DNA of 64,000 nt from a virus, in the IMG/VR virus record IMGVR_UViG_3300017917_002814, positions 1-64,000 of that record; one strand, 5' to 3'. The stretch's first letter is position 1. Each line of letters starts with the position of its first letter. Below, piece after piece: positions 4,246-59,957 of the stretch. The position numbers and the translations under genes are program-made. The notes beneath the pieces were generated by a model that was not told the DNA's origin, searched no databases, and worked only from the letters and a program-made list of their open reading frames with translations.

Positions 4246-4253
4246 TTACAGTA

Positions 4254-6873: not shown

Positions 6874-6905
6874 TCAGTTATTGTACAATCTTATACCAAC
6901 ACAAA

Positions 6906-39530: not shown

Positions 39531-39535
39531 AATAC

Positions 39536-39565
39536 TTTACATTCTTGTACTGGTTAGTGTATAAT
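39536..39565 (+). promoter_or_regulatory. Sigma70-type promoter of the accessory operon
   Basis: TTTACA (39536-39541) and a perfect TATAAT (39560-39565) are separated by 18 bases. Transcription would begin near 39572, some 23 bases before the ATG at 39595. The gene group starting there could therefore be read by unmodified host polymerase, early, unlike the structural operon before it. The -10 box lies in the loop of a perfect inverted repeat, which may allow control by a repressor or by DNA structure. Confidence 0.55.
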
Positions 39566-39590
39566 TTACGCTAACCAGTTTCTACATTTA
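39549..39590 (+). terminator. Inverted repeat, possible terminator of the structural operon
   Basis: ACTGGTTAG (39549-39557) and CTAACCAGT (39571-39579) are a perfect 9-bp inverted repeat, extendable to 11 pairs with one G-U, with a nine-base loop containing the TATAAT. TTTCTACATTT follows. It could fold as a terminator for the structural operon, though the T-run is imperfect, or act as an operator over the overlapping promoter. Confidence 0.45.
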
Positions 39591-39594
39591 TAAT

Positions 39595-39909
39595 ATGAAC
39601 GAAATCGAATCTTTAGTTAAAGAAATTCGCCAGGCGACGGATTTTCAAATCAATCGACGAATTTTACGAGAAAAAATTCAAACAGATTTACACATGACAC
39701 ATAACGGGGGAATGTTTAAAATTACACCAGAACTTTTAGCATTCGTAAAAACATGGCCTGTTGATGAAATTTATTTAGAGGACACTTATCAGAATCCAGT
39801 GTGTATAGATAAACAAACTTTCCTGGTAACAGCACAACAACACTATCAAACAGTAATGAATCGTTGGCATCAAGAATATGAAAACCTCAAAAAAATTAGA
39901 AAAATCTAG
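39595..39909 (+). CDS. Conserved phage protein of unknown function
   Basis: This 104-residue protein is charged and mostly helical (MNEIESLVKEIRQATDFQIN, REKIQTDLHMTHNGG, EIYLEDTYQNPV, WHQEYENLKKIRKI). I recall similar short proteins from marine T4-like phages but know no function. It is the first gene after the predicted sigma70 promoter. No clear Shine-Dalgarno is seen before its ATG. Its last codons overlap the next gene by 32 bases. Confidence 0.6.
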   Translation: MNEIESLVKEIRQATDFQINRRILREKIQTDLHMTHNGGMFKITPELLAFVKTWPVDEIYLEDTYQNPVCIDKQTFLVTAQQHYQTVMNRWHQEYENLKKIRKI

Positions 39910-40666
39910 AGGTATACTGGCGTTTGCTTACAATGTAGAATCAATTGATTACATTGCGATAGCAGCAAGCACATTAAAATTAGCAAGCGAAAAATTATCA
40001 TTACCTTACAGACTAATTACTGACGCAGAGCTAAAGAACGATGTATTTAATTCAAGATACGACATTGATTCAGACTCATTTATTACATGGCGAAATGTTG
40101 GTAGACATCATGCATATGAACTTTCACCTTTTGATGAAACCTTGGTCATTGACGTAGATTATCTTGTTGTCGACAACAATCTGAATAAAATTTTTGATTC
40201 AGATTGGGATTATTTGTTGCAGCGAAAAAGTTATGCATTGACGGCAGAGTGGTCAAAATTGATGGGTGCAACCAGTTTGCCTTACGTGTGGGCCACAGTA
40301 TTTGCTTTTAGAAAAACATCTCGTGCTCGACTTTACTTTGATTTAATTGGTCGCATACAAAGAAATTATGCATATTATTGCGCTCTGTTTAATGTTCAAG
40401 AACGTAATTTTAGAAATGATTATGCATTTGCTATGGCAGATGTTATCTTAAATGGTTATTCCTTGGCAAGCCAATCAATACCAGAAAACATGTTGGCTAT
40501 AAATCAACCTATTATGGATATTGATGTTGACGGTAATAAATTTGTTATTAGAGACAAAGACCAAGCATACGTCCTACCAAAAATGAATTTACATGTGATG
40601 AGTAAAAAATATTTACAGAGTGACAGATTTAAAAAATTAGTAAACCAACTAACCGATGAATCATAA
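39878..40666 (+). CDS. Glycosyltransferase-like protein
   Basis: This 262-residue protein looks like a GT-A type nucleotide-sugar transferase: FAYNVESIDYIAIAASTLKL at the N-terminus, then SPFDETLVIDVDYLVVD with a DVD metal-binding motif. It resembles the next protein in layout. It would move a sugar from a nucleotide donor to an unknown acceptor, probably in the cytoplasm; no signal peptide or membrane segment is visible. The start is inside the previous gene. Confidence 0.6.
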   Translation: MKTSKKLEKSRGILAFAYNVESIDYIAIAASTLKLASEKLSLPYRLITDAELKNDVFNSRYDIDSDSFITWRNVGRHHAYELSPFDETLVIDVDYLVVDNNLNKIFDSDWDYLLQRKSYALTAEWSKLMGATSLPYVWATVFAFRKTSRARLYFDLIGRIQRNYAYYCALFNVQERNFRNDYAFAMADVILNGYSLASQSIPENMLAINQPIMDIDVDGNKFVIRDKDQAYVLPKMNLHVMSKKYLQSDRFKKLVNQLTDES

Positions 40667-41492
40667 AGAACAACAAGGGTTTTTGACTGTGGCAATAAAT
40701 TCAGATAGTGTTGATTATCTTGAATTAGCCTATACACAGGCACTAAATGTCAAATGTACCCAAAAAATAAAAAGTTTTGCTGTTGTAGTAGACAAACACA
40801 CCCACAACTGTGTTAAAGACAAACACAGGGCAGTGTTTGATTATATAATTCAAGTACCTGAATCGACAACAGGACCATATGGCATAGAGCCTGAAGTATT
40901 TTGGTTGACTCCGTTCAAAGAAACTGTAAAATTAGAAAGTGACCTATTGTTTACTAGAAGTATTGATCATTGGTGGAACACTTTTAGATTACGAGATATT
41001 GTATTGAGCACAGGCTGTAGAAACTATCAACAAGAACTTTCGTTAGTAAGAAAATATAGAAAATTTTTTGATGACAATGATTTACCTGATGTGTATAATG
41101 GACTGATGTATTTTAGATTTACAAAAACAGCACGAGATTTTTTTACAACCGCAAAAAATATCTATGCCAATTGGACCACAGTGGGCGACATCCTTTTGAA
41201 TTGTAGGGATGATATTCCTACCACTGATGTGGTGTATGCAATTGCTGCACGGCTTGTTGGCCAAGAACAATGCACCTTACCCAGCGCAGATTTTGTAAAC
41301 TTTGTGCATTTAAAACCAGCAATCAACAGATTTGATGAAGACCTTGCAGTTAGAGAAGTATTTGTGACAGAATTTGATCAAGGTATGATTAGAATCAATA
41401 ATATAAATCAATATCATCCTTTGCATTATTACGATAAAACGTTTGTTACTAAAGAAATGATAGAATATTATGAACAAAGATCTATGGCTTGA
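40656..41492 (+). CDS. Glycosyltransferase-like protein, paralog of the preceding one
   Basis: This 278-residue protein shares the N-terminal pattern (INSDSVDYLELAYTQAL) and the motif LTPFKETVKLESDLLF, where ESD takes the place of DxD, with the upstream protein. The two are probably diverged duplicates. The later section DLPDVYNGLMYFRFTKTARD and the histidines near the end fit a GT-A fold. It overlaps both neighbours by 11 and 23 bases. Donor and acceptor are unknown. Confidence 0.55.
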   Translation: MNHKEQQGFLTVAINSDSVDYLELAYTQALNVKCTQKIKSFAVVVDKHTHNCVKDKHRAVFDYIIQVPESTTGPYGIEPEVFWLTPFKETVKLESDLLFTRSIDHWWNTFRLRDIVLSTGCRNYQQELSLVRKYRKFFDDNDLPDVYNGLMYFRFTKTARDFFTTAKNIYANWTTVGDILLNCRDDIPTTDVVYAIAARLVGQEQCTLPSADFVNFVHLKPAINRFDEDLAVREVFVTEFDQGMIRINNINQYHPLHYYDKTFVTKEMIEYYEQRSMA

Positions 41493-41841
41493 AGTAGCGA
41501 GACTGGTTGCCGAGCATGATGCACAACGGCCAATTGTGACCAAAGAATACAGATTATATTACAACGATGATGGTTCTATAATAGGATTATGGGAATCAAG
41601 CCATCCTGAAGGACACAATTATGTTGTACTTGATGATCCAGGAATATATTTTCACACAAATACGCATCTGTTAAAGGTAGTCAAAAACAAATTGGTAGTG
41701 CTAGATCCAAGAGAACCTAGTAGAGCAAGGCTTCAAAAATCAAATTCTGGTTTTATAACAGTAAAAGGTCACGCGGCTTTAATTGTTGAATCAAAAGAAA
41801 ATTACGGATTAATAGAGTACTATGACAAAACAAATTATTGA
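41470..41841 (+). CDS. Unknown protein
   Basis: This 123-residue protein has a beta-rich, charged sequence (KEYRLYYNDDGSIIGLWESS, HNYVVLDDPGIYFHTNTHLL, VKNKLVVLDPREPSR, SGFITVKGHAALIVESKENY). I do not recognise it. Overlaps with the glycosyltransferase-like genes on both sides suggest it is made with them, perhaps as a small partner. Confidence 0.5.
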   Translation: MNKDLWLEVARLVAEHDAQRPIVTKEYRLYYNDDGSIIGLWESSHPEGHNYVVLDDPGIYFHTNTHLLKVVKNKLVVLDPREPSRARLQKSNSGFITVKGHAALIVESKENYGLIEYYDKTNY

Positions 41842-42751
41842 TATAGCAGATTTAGATTGCATTTTTTTAACCTATGACGAACCTAAAAAAGAAGAGTTTT
41901 GGATCCAGATTCAAAACATGGTGCCGTGGGCAAAGAGAGTTGATGGAGTTAAAGGGTCTGATGCAGCGCATAAAGCAGCCGCAGCCGCCAGCGACACAGA
42001 CCGTTTCGTACTTATTGATGGAGACAATATTCCGGACCCAGAATTTTTCAACTTACAATTATCGTTGGATGAAAGAAATCATGACCACGTTTTTAGGTGG
42101 AGAGCACGTAATGTTATCAACGGACTCCGTTATGGTAACGGTGGTGTAAGTTGTTGGACTCAAGATTTTGTCAACAACATGCGTACTCACGAGGCCAGTG
42201 ATGGCAGTGAGGAAACTGCGGTAGAATTTTGTTTTAATCCAAAATACACAGCAATGCATAATTGTTACAGTACAACCTATCCCAATGGTAGCGCCAAACA
42301 GGCTTGGCGTGCAGGGTTCAGAGAAGGTGTAAAAATGTGTCTGGATAGAGGACATAAACCTTCGCTGCTGGAATTTGAAGAAGGTGTGAACAAAAGAAAT
42401 TACGATCATTTATGCATCTGGCAAAGTGTGGGCGCGGATATAGATAATGGTTATTGGGCTATGTATGGTGCTAGACTAGGAACCTATATGATAATGCTAG
42501 AGGGATGGGATTACCGTCAGGTGCAGGACTTTGATATGCTAGAAAGATTGTGGGAAAGTTTTAGTAAGGAAGATCCTGAAGAGGGTTGTAAAGGCATTGA
42601 AAGCGCACTCAGAAATAGATTGGGTTTGCCTATAGTTACATATACGCCAGAACAAAGCCGTTTCTTCAAATATCATTATACAACAGGGCAACGTAACAGC
42701 GAAATTATGATGACGGAAATTGATGTAATACGGAGAATAGAAGGATGGTAA
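41822..42751 (+). CDS. Glycosyltransferase-like protein related to the 617-residue repeat protein
   Basis: This 309-residue protein has a GT2-like arrangement: CIFLTYDEPKKEEFW, then GSDAAHKAAAAASDTDRFVL leading to IDGDNIPDPEF with a DGD metal motif. Later RNVINGLRYGNGGVSCWTQ and QAWRAGFREGVKM match the C-terminal part of the 61133 protein (RNCLNGLEYGHMGVIAYNK; WRTAFREVLKL). The two share a homologous domain. It overlaps the following dehydrogenase gene. Acceptor unknown. Confidence 0.6.
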   Translation: MTKQIIDIADLDCIFLTYDEPKKEEFWIQIQNMVPWAKRVDGVKGSDAAHKAAAAASDTDRFVLIDGDNIPDPEFFNLQLSLDERNHDHVFRWRARNVINGLRYGNGGVSCWTQDFVNNMRTHEASDGSEETAVEFCFNPKYTAMHNCYSTTYPNGSAKQAWRAGFREGVKMCLDRGHKPSLLEFEEGVNKRNYDHLCIWQSVGADIDNGYWAMYGARLGTYMIMLEGWDYRQVQDFDMLERLWESFSKEDPEEGCKGIESALRNRLGLPIVTYTPEQSRFFKYHYTTGQRNSEIMMTEIDVIRRIEGW

Positions 42752-43512
42752 TCGGAATTATAGGGTTTGGTGTAGTAGGAAAAGCTGTTTCGGCAGGACT
42801 ATCAAGTATAGGTAATATCTTATGTCATTATGATATCAACGACAATTCAAATTTAAATTCGGTAATAAAAAGTGATTTGGTTTTTATTTGCACGCCTACA
42901 GACACAACCATTGAAGGTAAATGCAATATTAGCTCAGTAGAAACAGTTGTTCAAGAGTTAAACGATAAAAATTTTACAGGAGTAATTGCTATAAAATCTA
43001 CTGTTATTCCTGGCACTACAGATAGACTTATTCAACAATATCCTGAGCTTAAAATTTGTTGTGTACCAGAATTTTTAAGAGCAAAAAGTGCTGCTGATGA
43101 CTTTTTCATGAATCATGATGTGTTAGTAGTAGGGTCGCACAATAAAAAATATAGTGATCTAGTAATTAAAGCACATGGTGCAATACCAAAATCAATATCT
43201 GTCGTTTCTCCGGTTGAAGCTGAGATTGTAAAATATTTTAATAATGTTCATAATGCTCTAGAAGTTGTATTTGCGAATGTGTTTTCTGAAATTTGTACTA
43301 AGGTCGGAGCAGACTATCAAAATGTTTTTAACGCCATAATTCAACGAAATAACATAAATGAGAAATATTTAAAATGCGATAAAAATTATAAAGGATATAA
43401 CGGCCATTGTTTACCAAAAGATACAATAGCATGGTATTATTTTACTAAAAATCTTGGCATTGACATAAATTTATTTCAATCAATTTTACAAGACAACGAA
43501 AGATATATATGA
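42745..43512 (+). CDS. UDP-glucose/GDP-mannose dehydrogenase family, short form
   Basis: This 255-residue protein has the NAD-binding GFGVVG loop (7-12), FICTPTDTTIEG, IKSTVIPGTTDRL, VPEFLRAKSA, and GHCLPKD with catalytic Cys222. These are hallmarks of enzymes oxidising the C6 hydroxyl of a nucleotide sugar to a uronic acid. Cellular forms have about 400 residues; the C-terminal UDP-binding domain is absent here. It may still act with a partner or use a different substrate. It overlaps the epimerase gene by ATGA. Confidence 0.8.
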   Translation: MVIGIIGFGVVGKAVSAGLSSIGNILCHYDINDNSNLNSVIKSDLVFICTPTDTTIEGKCNISSVETVVQELNDKNFTGVIAIKSTVIPGTTDRLIQQYPELKICCVPEFLRAKSAADDFFMNHDVLVVGSHNKKYSDLVIKAHGAIPKSISVVSPVEAEIVKYFNNVHNALEVVFANVFSEICTKVGADYQNVFNAIIQRNNINEKYLKCDKNYKGYNGHCLPKDTIAWYYFTKNLGIDINLFQSILQDNERYI

Positions 43513-44471
43513 AAATTATAGTAACAGGAAGCGAAGGCAGTTTAATGCAAGCATTAATACCTAGATTATTACATTCTGGTCATAGCATAGTTGGCATAGA
43601 TAATCTTTATAGGTATGGTAAACCAAGTGATCGTGCCGGAAAAGATTATGAATTTATAAATCAAGACCTGATAGATAGAGATAAAATTTTTAATATTACA
43701 AAAGGTGCAGACACGATTATACACAGTGCAGCTAAATTATATGGTGTGTTGGGATTACTAAATTATCGAGCCGATATACTAGGTGACGACACCGCTATTT
43801 GTAGTAATATAATGCAAGCCTGCGTTACTAACGATATATCACGTGTTGTATACATGAGTTCTAGCATGGTGTATGACAGTTGTATTCAAGACATCAACGT
43901 TCCATTATCTGAAACAATGACAGATACGTGTCCTTTGCCTAAAACAGATTATGGGTTGAGTAAACTAGTATGCGAAAGAATGATTGAATCCTTTAGGCAA
44001 CAATACGGTATAGAGTATACAATTTGGCGACCTTTCAATATTGTAAGTCCCCATGAGGAGCCAATGACAGAAATTGGATTTAGTCATGTATTACCTGATT
44101 TAATTAAAAACATAACTAAGAAACAACTTAATCCTTTGCCAATAATTGGGAACGGTGAACAAATTCGTTGTTTTACTTGGATCGACGATGTAGTTGATAT
44201 TATAGAAAAATATAGTTTTTCTGAAGCCACAAAAAATGAAACCTTTAATGTTTGTAATGTTGAACCAATTAAAATAAAAGATTTGGCTCAATTAATACAC
44301 GAAACATTTACACAAAAAAACGACAAACTAGAATTTACTACATCAATTGATTATGTACATGATGTTAAAATACGTATTCCTACTATTCAAAAACTTCTAG
44401 ATATTACAGGGCCCTACCGGTTTACTAAAACAAAAGAAAGTGTTCATAGATGCTTGCAACATCAACAGTAG
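43509..44471 (+). CDS. NAD-dependent sugar epimerase/dehydratase (extended SDR)
   Basis: This 320-residue protein has a Rossmann start TGSEGSL (6-12), AAKLYG, MSSSMVYDS, and the catalytic pair YGLSK, followed by RPFNIVSPHEEPM and FTWIDDVVDIIE. This is the pattern of GalE-like nucleotide-sugar epimerases and dehydratases. With the preceding dehydrogenase it would supply activated sugars to the glycosyltransferases. The product sugar cannot be told. The start of the next gene overlaps by 22 bases. Confidence 0.8.
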   Translation: MKIIVTGSEGSLMQALIPRLLHSGHSIVGIDNLYRYGKPSDRAGKDYEFINQDLIDRDKIFNITKGADTIIHSAAKLYGVLGLLNYRADILGDDTAICSNIMQACVTNDISRVVYMSSSMVYDSCIQDINVPLSETMTDTCPLPKTDYGLSKLVCERMIESFRQQYGIEYTIWRPFNIVSPHEEPMTEIGFSHVLPDLIKNITKKQLNPLPIIGNGEQIRCFTWIDDVVDIIEKYSFSEATKNETFNVCNVEPIKIKDLAQLIHETFTQKNDKLEFTTSIDYVHDVKIRIPTIQKLLDITGPYRFTKTKESVHRCLQHQQ

Positions 44472-45451
44472 TTATTGAAAATAACAATAAAAAAATTTGG
44501 CATCGTGATAAAGTTATAAACGAAATAATTTTAGCGATCCATAAAAAAGCTGATAAAATAATAGTACATCTTAATAACGAAGGCCCGTGTGCTGAAAGTT
44601 TAGGACTGTATAGTCTCTTAGATAGTATTTGTCAAAATTTTAATTATGATCCTAAGAATATTTCTATTGTTACCTGCAATCTATTAGAAAAAAATGATAA
44701 TTATAATATTGTCATTAATCCTCCAATTAAACATATTGATGTTTTACAAAAAAGACTTATCAAAGAACCGGCAGGATACAAAACTGTAGACAACAACACT
44801 AAACACTTTGGCCATTTTATCGGGCATGGTAATGTCCATAGATTACACGTTGGAAGTATTTTATACAAAAAATACCATAACAAGACAGTACAAACATACC
44901 ACTGTAATATTAAGGATTCGTATCACAGAGAATTTTTGGCGATAGAAGACATAATGTTTGGAAATTACAGTCAAGATGAAATAGATTGTGCTGTTGAATT
45001 TTTAAGAACTACTCCGATAAAATTTGATTTAGATATAGTTGATAGTTATCCTATAAGAGATTACAAGATGTATGATATATCTTTAGCTTATCCATCTATA
45101 TTTGTTGACATTGTAGCACACACTTTCTATTCAGGTAACACTTTTTATTTAGATGAAAAGTTATGGCGGCCTATAATCACAAAAACACCTTTTATAGTTC
45201 AAGGATCTCAGAACTTTATGCACAATCTAAAAAAATTAGGATTTCAAACTTTTGATAGATGGTGGAGCGAAGGATATAGTGAAGACCACGAAGATCACCA
45301 ACCTCGAGAAATTTTATCAATTATCGAGGATTTGTCAAAATTATCTGTAACAGATCTCAGTACAATGTACAAGGAAATGAAACCAGTATTGGATCATAAT
45401 TATAATACGTTTTTAAAGTTAAACAGTGCAAGCTTTGAGGTATTTAAATGA
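44450..45451 (+). CDS. GT-like protein with DEKLWRP motif (family A, copy 1)
   Basis: This 333-residue protein has a C-terminal third that matches two other proteins in the window: YLDEKLWRPIITKTPFIVQG, then LKKLGFQTFDRWWSEGY. The TEK-P-PFI-G pattern resembles the donor-binding end of fucosyltransferase-like GT10 enzymes, but that link is tentative. The N-terminal half is unlike its relatives. It is followed by an SGNH-like gene (ATGA) and a radical SAM gene, the same order as at 51535. Confidence 0.5.
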   Translation: MLATSTVVIENNNKKIWHRDKVINEIILAIHKKADKIIVHLNNEGPCAESLGLYSLLDSICQNFNYDPKNISIVTCNLLEKNDNYNIVINPPIKHIDVLQKRLIKEPAGYKTVDNNTKHFGHFIGHGNVHRLHVGSILYKKYHNKTVQTYHCNIKDSYHREFLAIEDIMFGNYSQDEIDCAVEFLRTTPIKFDLDIVDSYPIRDYKMYDISLAYPSIFVDIVAHTFYSGNTFYLDEKLWRPIITKTPFIVQGSQNFMHNLKKLGFQTFDRWWSEGYSEDHEDHQPREILSIIEDLSKLSVTDLSTMYKEMKPVLDHNYNTFLKLNSASFEVFK

Positions 45452-46158
45452 CGCAATTTGTTTATGCGGGAGACAGTTGGGCTTTAAAAGGATTTACTAA
45501 CGATAATTATAACATTGGAAATAATAATCCAATGGCCAATGATGTTAGAATGGCAGATCATTGGGAACTACCTTATACATATTGCTTGACACCGGGCAAA
45601 GGAAATTTGAGTATTTTAGATAAACTCTTAAGAATGAATATTCATGATAATATTCCTATTGTTTGGATTTATACCGAACCAGGTAGAGACTTTGGATATA
45701 TAACCGGGAAAGATGAGTTTGACTGGATAACAAGTGAAGACATTTTTTCTATTAGAAAAGAACTAGATGTTTATATAGTAAATGAAATTAAGAAAAAAAT
45801 TCGTAATCCTATAGCTTTCATTGGGGGACTAAGTGACATTAATATAGAATTAATGCAACAAAATGAGTTTAAAGTATTACACCCAAGTTGGCAACAATGG
45901 ATGGCAGAATATTTAAATAGGACAGAATATTTTAATTTTGGATGGGGAGCTTGCGACATTGGTTGGCGAGCCGATTACAACAATGTTACACCTAGTAAAA
46001 CTGCTTTGTTTGCCTGGGACGAGTTAATCAAAGAATGGTGTATGTGGGAAGACCTGGGTTTTATGTGTCATGAACATCCTACACCTTTATCAAACAAGTT
46101 ATTTGCAGACTACTTGCAGCAAGATGTTTATAATTGGATAGATAGTGTCAAAAAGTAA
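45448..46158 (+). CDS. SGNH-hydrolase-like protein 1
   Basis: This 236-residue protein has a GDSW block (8-11) at the N-terminus and HEHPTPLSN (His210) near the C-terminus, matching blocks I and V of SGNH/GDSL hydrolases. The Gly and Asn blocks between them are less clear. Such enzymes remove or transfer acyl or acetyl groups, for example on sugars. No signal peptide is visible. It lies between a family A GT-like gene and a radical SAM gene, both overlapping. Confidence 0.5.
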   Translation: MTQFVYAGDSWALKGFTNDNYNIGNNNPMANDVRMADHWELPYTYCLTPGKGNLSILDKLLRMNIHDNIPIVWIYTEPGRDFGYITGKDEFDWITSEDIFSIRKELDVYIVNEIKKKIRNPIAFIGGLSDINIELMQQNEFKVLHPSWQQWMAEYLNRTEYFNFGWGACDIGWRADYNNVTPSKTALFAWDELIKEWCMWEDLGFMCHEHPTPLSNKLFADYLQQDVYNWIDSVKK

Positions 46159-47527
46159 ATTTTTATCATCGGCAGAAGAAATGAAGGACCAATTAGGTCC
46201 TAGTCTCTGCTTGGCTAAGTGGCAACAAGTTAGTTTACATCTTCCTACAGGATTAACTAATAGTTGCTATCATCCTCCTTTGCATGAAATAGATGCCACA
46301 TTGTTAAAAGACAATCCTAGTGCGCTACATAATACATCTTACAAAAAAGAACAACGCAAGATCATGTTACGTAACGAGCGCCCGCAGGAATGTAGCTATT
46401 GTTGGACACAAGAAGATTTAGGAAATCTAAGTGACAGACATTACAGATCAGGTGAACCGTGGGCAGCAGAACATTTTGAAACCATTATGAATTCAACAGG
46501 TGATGAGGATCCTGTTCCTTCTTATGTGGAAGTCAATTTTAATCATGCTTGTAATCTCACGTGCTCCTATTGTAGTCCCCAGTTTAGTAGTAGTTGGGAT
46601 GATGAAGTTAGACGATTTGGCGGATATCCCACCAGTACTACTCATAATGATCCTTCCCATTTTGTTGGCCGAAGACGTCCTATACCTCATAGAGAACATA
46701 ACCCATTTGTGGAAGCTTTCTGGGAGTGGTGGCCAAGTTTATATCCAAAACTAAAACACTTTAGAATGACCGGTGGTGAGCCGCTGATGGATCGCAACAC
46801 CTATCGTGTGTTTGATTATGTGCTGGCATTTCCTAAGCCAGATCTACATATTGATGTAACCAGTAACTTTAGCGTAGAAGAAAAGTTATGGCAGCAATAT
46901 TTTGGTTATGTGAGTCAACTGTGTAATACAAACATTGAACACTTTATGCAATATGTCAGTTTAGATTCTGGCATAGCCAAGCATGCCGAATATATCAGAC
47001 ATGGCATGGAATTTAACAAGGTATTAGCGAGGGTTGAATTTTTCTTAAGACATATACCTAACCGCAATAGCCTAACATTTATCATAACGATGAATAATCT
47101 AAGTGTGCTAGGTCTTAAACAACAATTGGAAATTGTGCTGGCCTTACGTAGATATCATAGCACTACATACCAGCGGGTTTGGTTTGATACACCAATACTA
47201 AGACAACCCACTTGGCAAAGCTTACAAATATTGCCACCTGTATATGCCAGACGCTTGCAGGATGTCGTGGATTGGATGAAGGAAAACCTAGAGACAACGG
47301 ATCGTCCATTTCAAGGCTTCAAAGATTACGAAGTGCAACGTATGCAACGAGTATTAGATTGGATGCAAGAAGGTAGCAAATTAGATAGAGAATATGTTAT
47401 AATGCAACGTGCAGACTTTTACAGATTCTTCAATGAGCACGATAAACGTAGAGGAACCTGGTTTGCAAATACTTTTCCTGAAATGAAAGAGTTTTGGGAC
47501 GAATGCCGATATCATGCCCAAAATTAA
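46145..47527 (+). CDS. Twitch-type radical SAM protein
   Basis: This 460-residue protein has an N-terminal four-cysteine module (Cys22 in CLAKW, Cys41, CSYC at 83-86), the radical SAM motif CNLTCSYC (Cys136, 140, 143), TGGEPLMD, and the tail DKRRGTWFANTFPEMKEFW. It starts with GTG at 46145 inside the previous gene; an ATG 36 bases later is possible, but the longer form aligns better with its neighbour at 47514. These two are the closest pair among the eight (C..AKW, HNT, ECSYCW). Confidence 0.8.
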   Translation: MSKSKFLSSAEEMKDQLGPSLCLAKWQQVSLHLPTGLTNSCYHPPLHEIDATLLKDNPSALHNTSYKKEQRKIMLRNERPQECSYCWTQEDLGNLSDRHYRSGEPWAAEHFETIMNSTGDEDPVPSYVEVNFNHACNLTCSYCSPQFSSSWDDEVRRFGGYPTSTTHNDPSHFVGRRRPIPHREHNPFVEAFWEWWPSLYPKLKHFRMTGGEPLMDRNTYRVFDYVLAFPKPDLHIDVTSNFSVEEKLWQQYFGYVSQLCNTNIEHFMQYVSLDSGIAKHAEYIRHGMEFNKVLARVEFFLRHIPNRNSLTFIITMNNLSVLGLKQQLEIVLALRRYHSTTYQRVWFDTPILRQPTWQSLQILPPVYARRLQDVVDWMKENLETTDRPFQGFKDYEVQRMQRVLDWMQEGSKLDREYVIMQRADFYRFFNEHDKRRGTWFANTFPEMKEFWDECRYHAQN

Positions 47528-48884: not shown

Positions 48885-48889
48885 ATGAC

Positions 48890-52407: not shown

Positions 52408-53120
52408 CTAATTTTATAATTACAGGATGCAGTTTTTCGGCTGGAATTATTCCTTTACCTCACAATACTGTAAAGGATTGGGAAGATCGTGGTAGTGTAT
52501 GGCCTCACTTTTGTTTTGCAAAAATGAATCCATCAAGAGATAAATTTTTAAATTTAGCGATTCCGGGCGGTGGTAATTTAGCATCATTCATGAATTTAAT
52601 TTATGTGTTAGAAACAAATAAGAATGATGTAACTCCAGATAACACGCTCATTGGATTCAATATTACCGGTATGAATCGATATGATATAATAGGAAGTCCA
52701 GAAAGAGATAATATTAATAAAGATATGTGCTGTATTGACCCTGAAGGTATTTTACATCCAAGCGAAATGTTGGGATTCGGATGGATAACAAAACCAAACT
52801 ACAATTTAAATACATATATTATTTCAGAGTTAGTTATTCTAGCATGTTTAAGTTATTTAGAATCAAGAAACTTTAACTATTTTTTTATGTTAATGAATGA
52901 TTCAATATACACAGACTCATCGTTTATGTTTCAACAGGTGTTAGATGAAAGAAAAACAAATTGGATTATTTTCAATAAAATCAAAGGAATGGCAGAATTC
53001 GCAAAAGATCATCATCAGCTTAAATCAGACGGCCATCCTACTACAATAGGACATAAAATAATAAGCGAATTCGTTCTTGATTGGATTAGAGAAAAACATA
53101 AACATTATATCAATGAATAA
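52404..53120 (+). CDS. SGNH-hydrolase-like protein 2
   Basis: This 238-residue protein has GCSFSAG at residues 8-14, where the usual GDS Asp is Cys, then PGGGN (a Gly/Asn block) and DGHPTTIGHKI with Asp209 and His211. The Ser and the Asp-x-His pair fit an SGNH fold. The Asp-to-Cys change in block I does not touch the catalytic Ser. The ATG overlaps the upstream stop (ATGA). It probably acts on acyl groups of a glycan, by analogy. Confidence 0.5.
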   Translation: MTNFIITGCSFSAGIIPLPHNTVKDWEDRGSVWPHFCFAKMNPSRDKFLNLAIPGGGNLASFMNLIYVLETNKNDVTPDNTLIGFNITGMNRYDIIGSPERDNINKDMCCIDPEGILHPSEMLGFGWITKPNYNLNTYIISELVILACLSYLESRNFNYFFMLMNDSIYTDSSFMFQQVLDERKTNWIIFNKIKGMAEFAKDHHQLKSDGHPTTIGHKIISEFVLDWIREKHKHYINE

Positions 53121-54405
53121 ACCAAGTGCTTTATGTATGGCACCGTGGACTCATACATACCTTAGTCCACAAACAGAACGCAGATTGTGTTGTGCCAGCA
53201 GGGAACCTGCACAAAATTTTCAACAATATATTGATACCAGCATCGGTACAGGCAAGTATATACCTATTACCCTAGAAGAATACTGGAACGGAGACCACAT
53301 GCGCAGTGTACGCAGACGTATGCTGGCAGGAGAAACTTTGCCTGAGTGTGCAGTATGTAATGACCGACTGTTGAACACCGACGTTTACCGCAGTTATTTT
53401 AACAACTTGTTTGCACATAAGTACAAGCAAGTACTAGAAACAACTGACGCTTCGGGCTCAACGACCATGAAGCCCGTTAGCTGGGATTATAGATTTAGTA
53501 ATCTCTGCAACTTCAAATGCCGTATGTGCGGTGACATGCTGTCTAGTTCATGGGAAAGCGAACAGAGACAACACCAAATGATCAATTGGTCTAATCCAAA
53601 AAACAATTGGATGAAGCCTGAAATCAAAAGCGAAATTGAGAAGTTTCAAACAACTCAAATTGAAGCCGAGTTCGCAGCAGCAGTAGAGGACCACCGTGTA
53701 GAAGAAGTGTACTGGGTGGGGGGAGAACCGCTAATGTACGAGCAACATTGGCGGTATATGCAGCGCATTATAGAACTAGGAGACGCACCAAATGTTTACG
53801 CTAGATACAACACTAATCTTAGCCGCATTGATTATAGAGGTTGTAATCTTTATAGGAATATTCTTAGTCAATTACGAGATTGGCAAATATGTGCAAGTAT
53901 CGATGGCACAGGCCAAATTGGAGAATATATCAGAACAGGCCTTGATTATGAAACGTGGCTTGCAAACTTTAAGGCAGGAGTTGCGGTTGCTAACCACCGA
54001 AGACAAATGAGAATAGACTTCACTCTTACCCTTCCGGGTATGTTTGAAGTTGAAAATATACAGCAGTTAGGTAACGATTTGGGCGTTGACATCCTTGCTA
54101 AGGTTGTCTTTAGTTTTACACCAGACATAGTTATGTCACCTTTAGCCCTACCCAGGAGCATATTAGAACCATGGGTAGATGAAATCATAAACGCCGGAGT
54201 AGCCGGTCCATTAAAGGATATACTAGTTCAGTTAAAAACACGCCCTACCTTTCAAGAACAATATGGTATTGATGCTTATCTCAAAGGAGTTGCTCAAGGC
54301 AAGGCTCGTGTGTTACAATTAGAGTCTATTCGTAGTCAACCTATTACAATGGATGAAATATTATCAAAGAGAGCAGATGTATATGAGTGGTGGCAATCAA
54401 TTTGA
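53113..54405 (+). CDS. Twitch-type radical SAM protein
   Basis: This 430-residue protein is read from the ATG at 53113, so that the sequence begins MNKPSALCMAPW like its relatives; an upstream in-frame ATG at 53077 lies inside the previous gene. It has Cys8, CC at 26-27, CAVC at 79-82, radical SAM CNFKCRMC (Cys132, 136, 139) and VGGEPLMY. The tail (SIRSQPITMDEILSKRADVY) keeps only part of the shared C-terminal motif, making it the most diverged in that region. It closes the second GT-like, SGNH, radical SAM cassette. Confidence 0.8.
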   Translation: MNKPSALCMAPWTHTYLSPQTERRLCCASREPAQNFQQYIDTSIGTGKYIPITLEEYWNGDHMRSVRRRMLAGETLPECAVCNDRLLNTDVYRSYFNNLFAHKYKQVLETTDASGSTTMKPVSWDYRFSNLCNFKCRMCGDMLSSSWESEQRQHQMINWSNPKNNWMKPEIKSEIEKFQTTQIEAEFAAAVEDHRVEEVYWVGGEPLMYEQHWRYMQRIIELGDAPNVYARYNTNLSRIDYRGCNLYRNILSQLRDWQICASIDGTGQIGEYIRTGLDYETWLANFKAGVAVANHRRQMRIDFTLTLPGMFEVENIQQLGNDLGVDILAKVVFSFTPDIVMSPLALPRSILEPWVDEIINAGVAGPLKDILVQLKTRPTFQEQYGIDAYLKGVAQGKARVLQLESIRSQPITMDEILSKRADVYEWWQSI

Positions 54406-55573
54406 AGTTACAGTAACTTTAAGGAATCCAGTTGATTACGATGATATTATCAAATATTACATTGATGTTTATGATAATACTTTAGCTAAAGATTGGATAA
54501 ACGCACTTAAATTATTACTGAAATCAAATAGCCTGTTGGAAAAAAATTTTTGTTTTATGGGATTTCCTAATACAAAGAGAACATTAGAGTTATTATGTAA
54601 CCAACTGAATAAATCTGTTTTTCAGATCAATAAATTTAACAGCGAACTTTATTGGGTGAAAGCAGGATTACAGTCCTATATTATCGAGGATTATTTTACA
54701 CCAGATACAGTTAGATTTGGCACAGAGTATTCAATGCCAAGTAGATTACATCCAGAAGGAAATCAAGATTTTCATCAGATTCAACATCTTGGGCTTGTAG
54801 CCAAAAAAAATATTTTGAACAGTTTGCATAATCATTTTGAAATTTTACAAGGCACAGTTGATCAACCAAGCGAATACTACTTGATTGCTGATTACGAAAC
54901 AAAGTATGCAATCAGACAGTTGAATGTTCTTTGTCATGAAATTGAAAATCTAACTCTAAGTCAACTTAAAGAAATGACTATGCCCGAATGGATTAGACCC
55001 AGTCAAATTACAACTTGGTTGCATGCGCCAAGATACAAATTGACAAACGAACATCGTAAATTGTTTTTACAAAATGGATATGATAGAAGATTCGGAAAGG
55101 TGTATATGCACTGGGCACAAATTGGTAAAACATTGTTTGAAGTTTTTAGAGATGAAAATGCCCCCAAATTAGATAGTGCCAAGTGTGCGGCAATTACTCA
55201 TTTAGAATATTATAGCGGTGAATTTGATGTAGAATGGGGATTGGATGTTGTAAGCGGCGAAGGGTCTAGGCATTTTTGGCATGTTGAAGAACAAAAATTA
55301 TTTAGAGAATGGCTTATAAAAAATAATTTAGATCCAAATGATACCCGTTTAAGTCTTGGTTATTTGCCAATTGGCGAAGTAAATTTACAAAAAAGTTTTG
55401 GTACAGAAAATCATTTTGAAATATGGAAAATACTAGGAAATCATTTAGATATATTTTCTATAGAAGTAAATGGCATAGTTGGAGTATACGATTATTGTTG
55501 GAGTGATCCAGATTATAAAAAAATGCAAATAGATATAATGAGACCAGGATATGATTTTAGTAGCCGGCGGTGA
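54383..55573 (+). CDS. Unknown protein
   Basis: This protein of about 396 residues was not recognised. It has no cysteine cluster or nucleotide-binding loop. Notable are EYYLIADYETKYAIRQLNVL, PSQITTWLHAPRYKL, YMHWAQIGKTLFEVFRDE, and a late acidic and aromatic part (LEYYSGEFDVEWGLDVVSGE). I chose ATG 54383, which has an AAGAGAG element at ribosome-site distance; ATGs at 54353 and 54377 are alternatives. Its place between a radical SAM gene and two SGNH-like genes, with overlaps on both sides, suggests the same pathway. Confidence 0.5.
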   Translation: MSGGNQFEVTVTLRNPVDYDDIIKYYIDVYDNTLAKDWINALKLLLKSNSLLEKNFCFMGFPNTKRTLELLCNQLNKSVFQINKFNSELYWVKAGLQSYIIEDYFTPDTVRFGTEYSMPSRLHPEGNQDFHQIQHLGLVAKKNILNSLHNHFEILQGTVDQPSEYYLIADYETKYAIRQLNVLCHEIENLTLSQLKEMTMPEWIRPSQITTWLHAPRYKLTNEHRKLFLQNGYDRRFGKVYMHWAQIGKTLFEVFRDENAPKLDSAKCAAITHLEYYSGEFDVEWGLDVVSGEGSRHFWHVEEQKLFREWLIKNNLDPNDTRLSLGYLPIGEVNLQKSFGTENHFEIWKILGNHLDIFSIEVNGIVGVYDYCWSDPDYKKMQIDIMRPGYDFSSRR

Positions 55574-56375
55574 CAGTTTTATTTTTGGAGCTGAATTAAA
55601 GGATCAAATTCTTGGTCCTAGTCTAAGCACATATCCAGCATTATTGGCAAAAGAAAAAAATATAAATTATCATTGTGCTGCCTGGTCTGGTAATGCCAAT
55701 AATGCCATAAGTCGTATGACGATGGCAGCATGCGAATACTTTAAAAAACAAAATCAAACAGTATTAGCATTAGTGACTTGGACTTTTACTAATAGATATG
55801 AGTTTAGATTTAATTATAATACCAAACAACAAATCAGCCCATGGTATAGTATCAACGCTTGGTCCACAGTAGACGACTTATCAATAATTGAAAATGAATT
55901 TAAATCTAAAAATGACGCTATATTACATTTCCAAAAAGAAAATATAAACACAGCAAAACAAACTGGTATAGCGGAATTTTCTAAAATATTCTTTCAGCAT
56001 GTTGGAGACAATGAGTATTATGAATTGTATTCTAGTCTCAAAGAAATTTTGTTTTTACAAAATTATATGAAAATAAACAATATACCTTATTTGTTTGTAC
56101 CCGCTGATAATCATTTTTACGATCATCCAAATTATTTTAGAAGGAAAGATGAATATATTGATTCACTTTATAACCAAATTGATTGGAATAACTGGTTCTT
56201 TTTTGAATCTGGTACACAAGTAAATCATACTAAAGAACCTCGAGGCTTTTATCAATGGGCAGTAGAAAATAAATATCCAGTGGGAACAACACATCCTCTT
56301 GAAGAAGCACATTCTGCAGCAGCAATTTTATTAAAGGAAAAATTCAATGAATTGGTTACGAAATCTTTGGAATAA
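55551..56375 (+). CDS. SGNH-hydrolase-like protein 3
   Basis: This 274-residue protein starts MILVAGGDSFIFGAEL with GDS at 7-9, has a SGNANNAISRMT block, and ends with THPLEEAHSAAAIL (His248). This is a clear SGNH layout with catalytic Ser9 and His248 by analogy. It overlaps the previous gene by 23 bases, and a 33-residue ORF starts inside its last codons. It resembles the protein at 56445, so the two may be diverged copies. Confidence 0.6.
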   Translation: MILVAGGDSFIFGAELKDQILGPSLSTYPALLAKEKNINYHCAAWSGNANNAISRMTMAACEYFKKQNQTVLALVTWTFTNRYEFRFNYNTKQQISPWYSINAWSTVDDLSIIENEFKSKNDAILHFQKENINTAKQTGIAEFSKIFFQHVGDNEYYELYSSLKEILFLQNYMKINNIPYLFVPADNHFYDHPNYFRRKDEYIDSLYNQIDWNNWFFFESGTQVNHTKEPRGFYQWAVENKYPVGTTHPLEEAHSAAAILLKEKFNELVTKSLE

Positions 56376-56448
56376 AGTTAGATTAGAAATAAGGTATAGA
56401 CGTAAACTAAGAGAATTACGTAAAAGAGATCCTTTTATATACAAATGA
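56347..56448 (+). CDS. 33-residue basic peptide
   Basis: ATG at 56347 opens a 33-codon frame ending in TGA at 56446-56448. It overlaps the end of the previous gene by 29 bases and shares ATGA with the next start. The product is strongly basic and helical (WLRNLWNKVRLEIRYRRKL, then RELRKRDPFIYK). From memory, small proteins ending in KRDPFIY occur in marine T4-like phages. It fills what would otherwise be a 69-base gap. Function unknown; a membrane-surface or nucleic-acid binding peptide would fit its composition. Confidence 0.6.
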   Translation: MNWLRNLWNKVRLEIRYRRKLRELRKRDPFIYK

Positions 56449-57092
56449 TTCATGCCATTGGGGACAGCTTCACTTACGGTGATGAGTTGCAATCACACGA
56501 ACATGCCTGGCCATCGGTGTTGGCCAAAAAAATTGATAAAGATATTGGAAACTTAGGCAAATCTGCTACAGGTAACACACGTATAGTAAAACGCACAATT
56601 GATGCAGTAATTGATAAAAGTGAGATGATTATCATTGGGTGGAGTGATTGCAACAGGCAAGAATTCGCAGATGATATTGGAATATACGATATTTGGGCTG
56701 GTAGAAATTATCGAGCAATGCAAACCCATGATCATACGCATCGAATTGATTTAATAAAATACGTCACAGCTTACGACAACCCTGAATATTATTATTCAAA
56801 TTGGCTACGGCAAATCATACTAGTGCAAAGTTTATGTAAATTACACCAGATTCCGTGCGTGATGTTTATTGCATGCGGGTCAAATAAAAATCATTTACAA
56901 TACTATAAAAAATTTTCAAAGTTACTAAATGCCGTTGATCAATCTATTTTTGTCGACAATATGTTTACAAGCGTAAATGAATGGACATACGGAACAGCAC
57001 AAGGTCCTGGTGGACATCCTCTTGAGGCAGGGCATGAAATTATAGCAAATAAAATTTATGAACATATTAGGAATAAGTGCTGGGTTTCATGA
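56445..57092 (+). CDS. SGNH-hydrolase-like protein 4
   Basis: This 215-residue protein starts MIHAIGDSFTYGDEL with GDS at 6-8, then NLGKSATGNTRIV as the Gly/Asn block and GGHPLEAGHEIIA (His191). It is the best SGNH match of the four. The following carbamoyltransferase starts 35 bases before its end. A role in acylating or deacylating a sugar next to carbamoylation is plausible but not shown. Confidence 0.65.
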   Translation: MIHAIGDSFTYGDELQSHEHAWPSVLAKKIDKDIGNLGKSATGNTRIVKRTIDAVIDKSEMIIIGWSDCNRQEFADDIGIYDIWAGRNYRAMQTHDHTHRIDLIKYVTAYDNPEYYYSNWLRQIILVQSLCKLHQIPCVMFIACGSNKNHLQYYKKFSKLLNAVDQSIFVDNMFTSVNEWTYGTAQGPGGHPLEAGHEIIANKIYEHIRNKCWVS

Positions 57093-58542
57093 CGCTGCTG
57101 CCGCAGTAATTGATCGTCGAGGCAATATACTGTACGCAGCACATAGTGAGCGTTATAGCCGAATCAAAAACGACGCTAATCTTTGTCGCGACATGATGGA
57201 TGATATCATAGATCAATTTCCTATCTCCCATGTTGCATATTACGAAACGCCATGGAAGAAACAATTGCGTAGGTTGTATAGTGGCGAAGGCATAGAATGG
57301 AATAAATTATCTACTAAACGAATACTTACAGAACAATTTGGCGGATGGGCGCATATTCCCAGTTATAGCTCACACAACCATCATCTTAGTCATGCCGCAG
57401 CAGGATTTCAAACCAGTCCATACGATCGTGCCACGGTAGTAGTCATTGATGCCATTGGCGAATGGGATACTATTAGCATATGGGGCGCAGAGTACGATAG
57501 TAGAGGTTACGCTCAATATAAACGATTATGGAGACAACAATATCCTCACAGTATAGGTCTGTTTTATTCGGCAATGACAAAAAAAGTTGGCCTAAAGCCC
57601 AACGAAGATGAATATATTTTAATGGGAATGAGTGCGTATGGTAGACCAGGATACACAACATCATTGCAAGACTTATTGGTAGAAAATGAATGGCAGGCTA
57701 CGTTCAAACACAATTTACATGTTGGCTTAGACACTGAACCTTTGGCTAAACATTTACACGATACAGATTTGGCAGCCGCAACACAAAAAGTGTTAGAAAG
57801 ACTAGTATACAATATCATGCGCCGTGCTAGAGACTTTGGTTGGAGCACCAATCTTGTATATATGGGCGGTGTTGCTTTAAACTGTTTAGCAAATAGAAAC
57901 CTCGGAGAATATTTTGAAAACATTTGGATTATGCCTAATCCTGGTGATGCTGGTAGTAGCCTTGGTGCTGCCGCACTTGCATATGGGCGTCGTGTTAATT
58001 GGGTCAATGCTTATCTTGGCCATGATATTCCGGGAGCATATCCCGTTACACCCATACTTGATAGTTTACTATCTGACGGTATTTGTGGTGTTGCTAATGG
58101 TCGTGCTGAGTTTGGTCCACGTGCTTTAGGTAATAGAAGTTTATTGGCAGATCCAAGAGGACCCAAAATAAAGGATAGAGTAAATGAAATCAAACGCAGA
58201 CAAAAGTTCAGACCTTTCGCTCCTGTTATATTGGAAGAGATGGCTGATCAGTACTTTATTTTCCGCGATGGGTGGCATAATAGCCGTTATATGCAGTCAG
58301 TCGCTCAGTGCAGGTATACTGACCGTTTTCCTGCTATCTGCCATTATGATGGGACCAGTCGAGTACAAACGGTACCACGAGATGGGTCAGGAATTAGAGA
58401 ACTCTTAGAAAAGTGGTTCATGCTTACAGATTGTCCTATGCTGCTAAACACTAGTTTAAACATCAAAGGCGAACCAATGGTAAATGATCGAGCAGATGCA
58501 GATAGATTTGAAAGTAAATACGGTATAAAGGTATTTTCATGA
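57058..58542 (+). CDS. Carbamoyltransferase, NodU/CmcH family
   Basis: This 494-residue protein has GISAGFHDAAAAV at the N-terminus (His11, Asp12), SHNHHLSHAAAGF, VVIDAIGEWDT, MGMSAYGRPGY, GGVALNCLANRN, FGPRALGNRSLLADPR and a C-terminal NTSLNIKGEPMV. These mark the two-domain enzymes that move a carbamoyl group from carbamoyl phosphate, via carbamoyl-AMP, to a hydroxyl of a sugar or other small molecule. It is somewhat shorter than bacterial members (about 550-600). Its place between SGNH-like and kinase genes fits tailoring of a glycan or nucleotide-linked product. Confidence 0.88.
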   Translation: MNILGISAGFHDAAAAVIDRRGNILYAAHSERYSRIKNDANLCRDMMDDIIDQFPISHVAYYETPWKKQLRRLYSGEGIEWNKLSTKRILTEQFGGWAHIPSYSSHNHHLSHAAAGFQTSPYDRATVVVIDAIGEWDTISIWGAEYDSRGYAQYKRLWRQQYPHSIGLFYSAMTKKVGLKPNEDEYILMGMSAYGRPGYTTSLQDLLVENEWQATFKHNLHVGLDTEPLAKHLHDTDLAAATQKVLERLVYNIMRRARDFGWSTNLVYMGGVALNCLANRNLGEYFENIWIMPNPGDAGSSLGAAALAYGRRVNWVNAYLGHDIPGAYPVTPILDSLLSDGICGVANGRAEFGPRALGNRSLLADPRGPKIKDRVNEIKRRQKFRPFAPVILEEMADQYFIFRDGWHNSRYMQSVAQCRYTDRFPAICHYDGTSRVQTVPRDGSGIRELLEKWFMLTDCPMLLNTSLNIKGEPMVNDRADADRFESKYGIKVFS

Positions 58543-58976
58543 CAACCAGAATACTTATAATGGGATTACCAGGTGCAGGAAAAACTACATTGGCTCTGAA
58601 CTTGCTTGGTTACTTCAGTCCTGATGTTCTTTGGCTCAATGCTGACGAAATCAGACGTAAATTTGATGATTGGGATTTTAGCCACGATGGTAGAATTCGA
58701 CAGAGCAGGCGAATGCGAGAAATTGCAGATGTGTCGAACAGAGACTATATAATTGCAGACTTTGTGTGTCCATTGCCGGAAATGCGCGATATATATGATC
58801 CTCATTTTTTAATCTGGGTAGACACAATTACAGAAGGAAGATTTGAAGATACCAATAGAGTATTTGTGCCTCCAGAAAAATACGATGCTAGAGTAACAGA
58901 ACAAGATGCAGGTAGATGGGCTAAGGAAATACATGAACAAATATCACATAAGATTCAATCATCAACACAACGGTAA
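58539..58976 (+). CDS. P-loop kinase, adenylylsulfate-kinase-like
   Basis: This 145-residue protein has the P-loop GLPGAGKTT (9-17), then LWLNADEIRRKFDDWDFS and RIRQSRRMREIADV, similar to CysC-type kinases. It lacks sequence past about residue 145 that larger kinases have. It could phosphorylate APS or a similar nucleotide, or a sugar. ATGA joins it to the carbamoyltransferase, and the next start lies inside its end. Confidence 0.7.
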   Translation: MTTRILIMGLPGAGKTTLALNLLGYFSPDVLWLNADEIRRKFDDWDFSHDGRIRQSRRMREIADVSNRDYIIADFVCPLPEMRDIYDPHFLIWVDTITEGRFEDTNRVFVPPEKYDARVTEQDAGRWAKEIHEQISHKIQSSTQR

Positions 58977-59505
58977 CGGAAAGCTGTGGCGTGTGTTTGA
59001 AAATGGTAAAGAATATCTGGTAGAACATTTAGACATTCGTGTGCCTATACGAGATGATGTAACTGTAGAAAACGGCGTTGAGAAATGGAATATTTACTGC
59101 GAAGGATATCTATCGATTACAAACAGTACTGCTCGAATAGAAGCCACCCCTACATTTGATTGGAGAAAACCAACAGTACAAATGCTTGGTCGTTGGCAAC
59201 CATGGCATGCAGGCCATCGTGCATTGTTTGAACGTGCAATTAAAAAAACTGGACAAGTATGTATTATGATTCGTGACTGCCAAGATTGGAATCACAGTAA
59301 TCCATTTGATGTAGAAGCAGTTAAAAATTATATTCGCGCAGATTTGGATCCTGAATATAAAGGAAGGTATGAGATTGTTATAGTGCCTAATATCGTAAAC
59401 ATCACATACGGTCGTGATGTTGGATATATCATAGAACAAGAAACTTTTGATGACGCCACACAGGCTATTAGCGCCACTGCTATAAGAAAACAAATGGGTG
59501 TATGA
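58933..59505 (+). CDS. Nucleotidyltransferase (HxGH family)
   Basis: This 190-residue protein has an N-terminal part of about 80 residues (YHIRFNHQHNGNGKLWRVFE, KWNIYCEGYL). A nucleotidyltransferase domain follows with GRWQPWHAGHRALFERA (His92, His95) and ISATAIR (179-185). Such enzymes transfer AMP or CMP to a phosphate-bearing substrate. The ATG at 58933 follows AGGAAA at good distance; an ATG at 58906 would add nine residues. Beside the CysC-like kinase, it suggests a two-step activation (phosphorylation and nucleotidylation) of a small molecule. Confidence 0.75.
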   Translation: MNKYHIRFNHQHNGNGKLWRVFENGKEYLVEHLDIRVPIRDDVTVENGVEKWNIYCEGYLSITNSTARIEATPTFDWRKPTVQMLGRWQPWHAGHRALFERAIKKTGQVCIMIRDCQDWNHSNPFDVEAVKNYIRADLDPEYKGRYEIVIVPNIVNITYGRDVGYIIEQETFDDATQAISATAIRKQMGV

Positions 59506-59957
59506 TGAAAGAAAAATTTAAAAATGCCTATATGCAAACCGCACAAACTTTTGCTCAACTTAGTCACGCCAAAAGATTAAAAGTAGGTTGCATCATAGTC
59601 AAAGACGATAGGATTATCTCAATTGGTTATAATGGTATGCCGGCTGGGTGGGATAACAACTGTGAAGATGAAACACTAGAATTATATTCAGGATTTGAAG
59701 GTGCTATACATCGAACCGTTTTAAAAACTAAACCAGAAGTATTGCACGCCGAGTCGAATGCTTTAGCTAAACTTGCACGGAGTAACGAATCAGGTGAAGG
59801 ATCCACATTGTTTGTTACTCACAGCCCTTGCCTTGATTGTGCCAAACTAATTTATCAATCTGGTATTAAAAAGTTGCTGTATAAAATAGCGTACCGGGAT
59901 GATTCTGGGATTGATTTTCTATGTAAGTCTGGGGTGGAAGTTGAGCAAATGCCTTAG
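59502..59957 (+). CDS. dCMP deaminase-like
   Basis: This 151-residue protein has the zinc-binding motifs HAE (82-84) and PCLDC (Cys110, 113) and an N-terminal AKRLKVGCIIVKDDRIISIG, with NGMPAGWDNNCED. It converts dCMP to dUMP for thymidylate synthesis. T4 Cd is 193 residues. Its ATG overlaps the TGA of the upstream gene. Its last 92 bases run opposite a minus-strand gene, so the two overlap tail to tail. Confidence 0.88.
   Translation: MMKEKFKNAYMQTAQTFAQLSHAKRLKVGCIIVKDDRIISIGYNGMPAGWDNNCEDETLELYSGFEGAIHRTVLKTKPEVLHAESNALAKLARSNESGEGSTLFVTHSPCLDCAKLIYQSGIKKLLYKIAYRDDSGIDFLCKSGVEVEQMP

Follow-up and report, generated by a model that had tools for sequence, protein, structure and literature searches.

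An order-conserved set of five radical SAM genes and a carbamoyltransferase gene in a tail fibre-linked operon of an uncultured T4-superfamily phage

Several phages are known to carry arrays of radical S-adenosylmethionine (radical SAM, rSAM) genes. The host recognition clusters of pelagimyophages and cyanomyophages are described as hypervariable and hold glycosyltransferases (GTs), lipopolysaccharide (LPS)-related genes and radical SAM cassettes at the tail fibre module (PMC7029224); the T4-related Campylobacter phages CP220 and CPt10 have 11-12 rSAM genes per genome and an interchangeable module of five rSAM genes (PMC2853527); and the Aeromonas jumbo phage vB_AerVM_332-Vera has eight rSAM genes inside its structural/tail fibre cluster (PMC12390700). 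The T4-like TARA_ERS488813_N000010 (183 kb) is described as having 12 rSAM genes and an A-type Fe-S carrier (PMC5332604). Here we analysed an accessory operon of about 20 kb (39595-59957, plus strand) in the first 64 kb (hereafter the window) of the 137,412-bp virus record IMGVR_UViG_3300017917_002814, designated G000 in coordinates outside the window. The statement in an earlier, sequence-only reading of the window that no described system has such a gene set was too strong in view of the first three of these published arrays. Phage rSAM arrays are thus precedented; the conserved five-enzyme set of this operon and its product are without precedent in the open-access literature searched.

The operon resembles the pelagimyophage clusters as an accessory island at the tail fibre module with GTs, LPS-type genes and rSAM genes, but hypervariability is a trait of those clusters, whereas here a core of five rSAM genes and a carbamoyltransferase is fixed in order, only the cargo is variable, and the phage belongs to a different lineage of larger phages. 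The T4-related CP220 likewise carries five radical SAM genes in one block; its rSAM proteins are however not of the N_Twi_rSAM family (at most 31 bits against NF033640, for which the curated cut-off is a full-length score of 170 bits), and its module contains a glycine amidinotransferase and an otherwise different gene set. Phage 332-Vera is a member of the Chimallinviridae with a different backbone, and its rSAM genes are likened to the present ones by description only. TARA_ERS488813_N000010 is alike in its many rSAM genes and A-type Fe-S carrier; an A-type Fe-S carrier gene (PF01521) is also present in our record (G000:133636-133938), and such a carrier is useful for Fe-S enzymes. The Vibrio phages K566 and K567 combine an N_Twi_rSAM array with GT8 genes, but at ~22% identity, with no match to the operon proteins g05 and g17, with LpxC and PagP nearby and without this gene set.

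Five rSAM genes had been reported for the operon from sequence alone, and each was confirmed: RS1 (46145..47527), RS2 (47514..48884), RS3 (48890..50338), RS4 (50325..51542) and RS5 (53116..54405) scored 303, 285, 402, 334 and 290 bits against NF033640 N_Twi_rSAM (overall range 285-403 bits), all above the cut-off and all with the CxxxCxxC radical SAM motif, which was retained in every close-relative ortholog examined. Cysteines of the twitch (an N-terminal half-SPASM) were also conserved, with C81, C99, C100, C141 and C144 of RS3 invariant in an alignment of RS3, RS4, RS5 and their relatives (A4), and Pfam SPASM was matched at the N-terminus of these same three proteins. The divergence within A4 made it unsuitable for scanning genomes, and an RS3-centred alignment (A5) took its place. 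In a maximum-likelihood tree built by a quick method, each RS group was split off by a branch with a support of 99-100, and RS1-RS5 are five distinct, non-redundant ortholog groups.

A viral scan with RS4 as the query, which makes RS4 present in the relatives by construction, recovered 57 loci, 39 of them close (L001-L039; 43-84% identity in RS4). Gene order was determined by tblastn of all window proteins, and presence was counted only where the contig reaches. The close relatives shared the order fibre genes, g01, g02, g03, (g04), g05, RS1, RS2, RS3, RS4, RS5, g17, followed in turn by SGNH variants, the carbamoyltransferase, the kinase and nucleotidyltransferase and a dCMP deaminase; the exception was L037, in which g17 precedes RS5. 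Presence at testable loci was near-complete for RS1 (32/33), RS2 (35/35), RS3 (36/36), RS5 (33/33), g17 (33/33) and the carbamoyltransferase (29/30), and g05 was found at 26/30. No close ortholog of the UDP-sugar dehydrogenase g06 or the epimerase g07 was found in the 39 close relatives, among which SGNH1 occurred in 0, SGNH2 in 3, g14 in 8 and g18 (SGNH3) in 14. The expectation of a gene order conserved across phages was accordingly borne out for the core and not for the remaining genes, and the scattering without co-occurrence that would have spoken against it was not seen for the core. Pairwise ratios of nonsynonymous to synonymous substitution (dN/dS) in core genes were mostly 0.04-0.2 where dS was unsaturated, many comparisons being saturated, and the core genes are under purifying selection. 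Because they are co-inherited in a fixed order over a large divergence, the core genes very probably act together; joint action, which had been proposed for the whole gene set, is not supported for the UDP-sugar dehydrogenase and the epimerase, which are local cargo. The conserved core of g02, g03, g05, the five N-twitch rSAM enzymes, g17 and the carbamoyltransferase is a real selected unit around which SGNH, additional GT and sugar-nucleotide genes are exchanged.

More distant viral loci (about L041-L057) share g01-g02-g03-g05 together with other N_Twi_rSAM genes; the best BLAST matches of RS3 and RS4 in these loci looked like orthologs, but those included in the tree fell outside the RS3 and RS4 clades and were rejected. 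Related records carry 3-16 N_Twi_rSAM matches each. Four contigs assigned to bacterial metagenome-assembled genomes (MAGs) labelled Verrucomicrobia, Pelagibacter, Rickettsiales and Betaproteobacteria (the contigs being L062, L064, L069 and L072), with MAG names indicating marine samples, encode phage fibre homologues and are for this reason probably phage contigs binned with bacteria. Three of them (L064, L069 and L072) contain a member of all five RS groups in the order RS1-RS2-RS3-RS5-RS4; an SGNH3 homologue lies 3′ of the array in L064 and L069, and L064 also has a carbamoyltransferase (50% identical) and a DegT gene. Among 50,697 phage records, by comparison, RS3 had 3 matches, RS4 had 5, g05 and g17 had 0, and the carbamoyltransferase had 134, mostly in cyanophages; its relatives in this isolate phage collection are 26-52% identical.

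The record has a T4-superfamily structure (gp46-like and gp47-like genes, baseplate genes and tail fibres) and its source is a large uncultured aquatic phage of that superfamily. The closest matches to its baseplate wedge protein come from jumbo phages, among them Atu_ph07, PA5oct and SCTP-2 (36-37% identity), so the record is possibly a fragment of a larger genome. As previously noted from the sequence, the operon is a run of overlapping plus-strand genes: 23 open reading frames lie 3′ of the fibre genes s10-s13, nearly all overlapping or abutting, and the sole internal gap longer than 10 nt is at 56376-56444. Immediately 5′ of the operon is s13 (38568..39530), a plus-strand gene for a fibre-like protein (37% Ser/Thr/Asn) that is variable among relatives. 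The 64-nt gap between s13 and g01 (39531-39594) contains the sigma70-like promoter that had been predicted (TTTACA-18-TATAAT, 39536-39565), and the promoter recurs in many relatives. A palindrome, ACTGGTTAGTG...CGCTAACCAGT, has the -10 box at its centre and is followed by a T-rich tail (whole element 39536..39579, plus strand). The stem differs in sequence among relatives, in which complementary arms and a TTGACA-like box are nevertheless found again. The hairpin was better than all 60 shuffles in 10/24 distinct upstream regions (about 0.4 expected), and among the matches listed when the entire record was scanned no other long hairpin had an equally close promoter match. The element may be a terminator of the fibre transcript combined with the operon promoter, or an operator. 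Within the operon, promoters and terminators were predicted no more often than in shuffled sequence.

The operon begins with g01 (39595..39909), encoding a conserved 104-aa protein found in 23 close and 6 distant relatives, and continues with two homologous putative glycosyltransferases, g02 (39878..40666), which has an invariant DxD in alignment A7, and its paralogue g03 (40656..41492). The small protein g04 (41470..41841) is weakly conserved. The highly conserved g05 (41822..42751) has a DGDN motif and a model with a predicted local distance difference test score (pLDDT) of 85.8, for which the best fold matches are GT-A enzymes, all weak (E ≥ 0.0026, none reaching 0.001); these matches point weakly to a GT-A-like glycosyltransferase. 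No outside family match was found for g02/g03 or for a second internally homologous set of GT-like proteins, the variable g08 (44450..45451) and g14 (51535..52407) and the minus-strand g24 (59866..61134); g02 has no Pfam match, and a profile search with it returned no PDB match. The earlier description of several proteins as GT-like is therefore weakly supported by fold for g05 and by no outside family for the others. A remote g05 homologue, g25 (61133..62986, plus strand), is a further putative glycosyltransferase.

Pfam confirmed the other named families, namely the nucleotide-sugar dehydrogenase g06 (42745..43512), which lacks the C-terminal domain, the NAD-dependent epimerase/dehydratase g07 (43509..44471), the carbamoyltransferase g20 (57058..58542), the APS-kinase-like P-loop kinase g21 (58539..58976), the HxGH nucleotidyltransferase g22 (58906..59505) and the nearby DegT-type sugar aminotransferase g26 (62964..63998, minus strand, extending to the window end), as well as the dCMP deaminase g23 (59502..59957), which is probably part of ordinary T4-type nucleotide metabolism. 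In g20 both Carbam_trans_N and Carbam_trans_C scored above the Pfam cut-off, and the His-rich and GRxEFGPRALGNRS motifs are present. Its nearest solved relatives are the novobiocin, GdmN and TobZ carbamoyltransferases, enzymes that O-carbamoylate sugars or other natural products; having both domains and the conserved motifs in common with these NodU/CmcH/TobZ-type enzymes, g20 is predicted to carbamoylate a hydroxyl. The products of g21 and g22 match one kinase-nucleotidyltransferase PHROG (phrog_10255). Sulfation by way of g21 was set aside, as no ATP sulfurylase or sulfotransferase family turned up in the scans. All four proteins that had been called SGNH-like, g09 (SGNH1, GDSW; 45448..46158), g15 (SGNH2, GCSFS; 52404..53120), g18 (SGNH3, GGDSF; 55551..56375) and its homologue g19 (SGNH4, DUF6071/Lipase_GDSL; 56445..57092), show, by eye, a GDS/GCS block and an HP further along, where SGNH/GDSL hydrolases have GDS in block I and D-x-x-H in block V; g19 alone passes the Pfam GDSL cut-off. 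No signal peptide is evident in them, since the GDS block lies within about a dozen residues of the start. The phage-only protein g17 (54353..55573) has a confident predicted fold (pLDDT 82.8; predicted template modelling score 0.82) with no PDB fold match, and its tblastn search gave no match in phage records; its matches in BFVD are phage proteins, all uncharacterised.

Outside this lineage, the 103 neighbours of N_Twi_rSAM genes at 15 bacterial loci included 17 Radical_SAM, 12 Glycos_transf_2 and 5 Lipase_GDSL_2 matches, and the Chitinophagales clusters L085 and L104 contain GDSL genes. In two Bdellovibrionia contigs (L109 and L128) nine N_Twi_rSAM-like open reading frames lie within 21 kb; an Asp/Asn beta-hydroxylase and several uncharacterised proteins are encoded nearby. 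The isolated phage K566 carries five N_Twi_rSAM-type genes, two of them above the cut-off, among GT8 genes, with the lipid A enzymes PagP and LpxC encoded a few kb from the array.

We favour the explanation, at a probability of about 0.5, that the operon is a separately promoted accessory unit in the host-recognition locus whose soluble enzymes tailor a glycan, with precursors of host LPS as the likeliest substrate. In favour of it are the conserved order and near-complete presence of the core, the five RS groups also found in marine contigs, purifying selection, the enzymes to which g20 is closest, the rSAM, GT2 and GDSL neighbours in bacteria, the GT8 and lipid A genes of K566, the operon's own promoter and the A-type Fe-S carrier. 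The products would act in the host cytoplasm, possibly early in infection, with sugar nucleotides or lipid-linked precursors of LPS as substrates: the GTs would place a sugar, the rSAM enzymes would alter it at unactivated C-H positions (for example by epimerisation or deoxygenation), a carbamoyl group would be added to a hydroxyl by the carbamoyltransferase, and the SGNH proteins would attach or remove acyl groups. Host machinery would then export the altered glycan, giving a changed receptor surface that might, for example, exclude superinfecting phages. Two indirect pointers lead us to prefer host LPS to virion proteins as the target: the operon has a sigma70-type promoter of its own, and K566 has lipid A genes near its array. 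A more specific proposal, which we regard as tentative and somewhat less probable than its negation, is a five-step rSAM pathway with one conserved enzyme per step. Its product would be a new sugar, C-H-modified and carbamoylated, on the surface of the host or the virion, and the pathway would be common to freshwater-type and marine phages and echoed by the bacterial rSAM-GT-GDSL clusters. Several observations weigh against tailoring of a host glycan. The SGNH genes vary among relatives; g02, g03 and g08/g14/g24 have no outside match and the fold match of g05 is weak; the bacterial neighbour tally is a raw count without a random-locus control; K566 is a single phage with a different and partial gene set; and by hydropathy the operon encodes no flippase, polymerase or membrane GT, so that export would depend on the host. 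Indeed no multi-pass membrane protein was found by hydropathy among the operon products, in contrast to gtrABC-type O-antigen conversion cassettes, which include a membrane flippase and a membrane GT.

The solubility of all operon proteins would equally suit glycosylation or another post-translational modification of the virion, in which the enzymes act on the fibre proteins encoded just upstream and produce a protective or receptor-binding glycan. In relatives with contigs long enough to show it, fibre genes directly precede the operon, s10, s12 and s13 are rich in Ser/Thr/Asn (0.31-0.37 versus about 0.18 in the operon), and virion glycosylation is established in mycobacteriophages, according to Freeman et al. 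2023 as cited in PMC12619734. Such a composition is however ordinary for fibres, the operon has its own sigma70-type promoter and is not simply part of the fibre transcript, and LpxC and PagP near the K566 array indicate the envelope; we consider virion modification less likely, though a serious rival. Known SPASM-type rSAM enzymes act mostly on peptides, which fits virion proteins as substrates, and rSAM/SPASM enzymes and O-carbamoyltransferases are common in natural-product clusters, so that the rSAM and carbamoyltransferase set might make a small molecule or a modified peptide (antibiotic-like, or akin to ribosomally synthesised and post-translationally modified peptides), either secreted or retained inside the cell, with the kinase-nucleotidyltransferase pair as a further point in its favour. 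Given that no precursor peptide, transporter or thiotemplate gene was seen and that the bacterial neighbours are recurrently GT and GDSL genes, this is improbable.

The variability of the UDP-sugar dehydrogenase, the epimerase, SGNH1, SGNH2 and g14 is what would be expected of morons, that is, unrelated genes gathered at a permissive hypervariable site with no joint pathway. For the core this is largely refuted by presence and order kept over saturated synonymous divergence, and the five RS groups are also common to marine phage contigs; as an account of the operon it is very unlikely. The sequence-only reading had also offered a modified nucleotide as the product, and an operon that makes or glycosylates a modified base could draw on phage GTs, which can glycosylate DNA, and on the dCMP deaminase as the last operon gene. 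This product is disfavoured and considered very unlikely: family scans of the operon found no base-modifying family, which phage DNA hypermodification clusters contain, and no base-hydroxylating gene; the sole thymidylate-synthase-family gene is located elsewhere; members of the carbamoyltransferase family modify hydroxyl groups on sugars and natural products; and the genome has separate candidate base-modification genes. These are a QueE-like rSAM gene with an altered cysteine motif and a PTPS/QueD-like gene (G000:79561-81016), and a GTP cyclohydrolase I (FolE) gene elsewhere in G000, where a search for QueC gave no match; a 7-deazaguanine-type DNA modification encoded by these genes is possible.

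If tailoring of a surface glycan is indeed the function, these phages would perform radical chemistry on envelope sugars, which bears on receptor change and superinfection exclusion. Five NF033640 members fixed together with a carbamoyltransferase also constitute a defined, expressible unit for finding the reaction of this family, none being known as far as we found.

The count of five rSAM proteins, correct for the operon, fell short for the record as a whole, in which ten radical SAM places were found. Three of these are on the minus strand at 1.4-8.4 kb of the window: RS8 (1368..2483), outside N_Twi_rSAM and adjoining a short-chain dehydrogenase/reductase (SDR) gene (787-1431); RS6 (4254..5405), an N_Twi_rSAM member (259 bits) adjoining an SDR gene (5402-5857); and RS7 (6906..8417), also N_Twi_rSAM (252 bits) and adjoining the gp47-like gene. 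Across this segment (1368-8417) two recombination genes, gp46-like (2476-4245) and gp47-like (5854-6873), are interspersed among them. Small SDR genes of the type neighbouring RS6 and RS8 are also found near N_Twi_rSAM genes in the bacterial loci L117, L129 and L136. Elsewhere in the window, positions 20389-33093 encode an unusually long structural protein of 4,234 aa.

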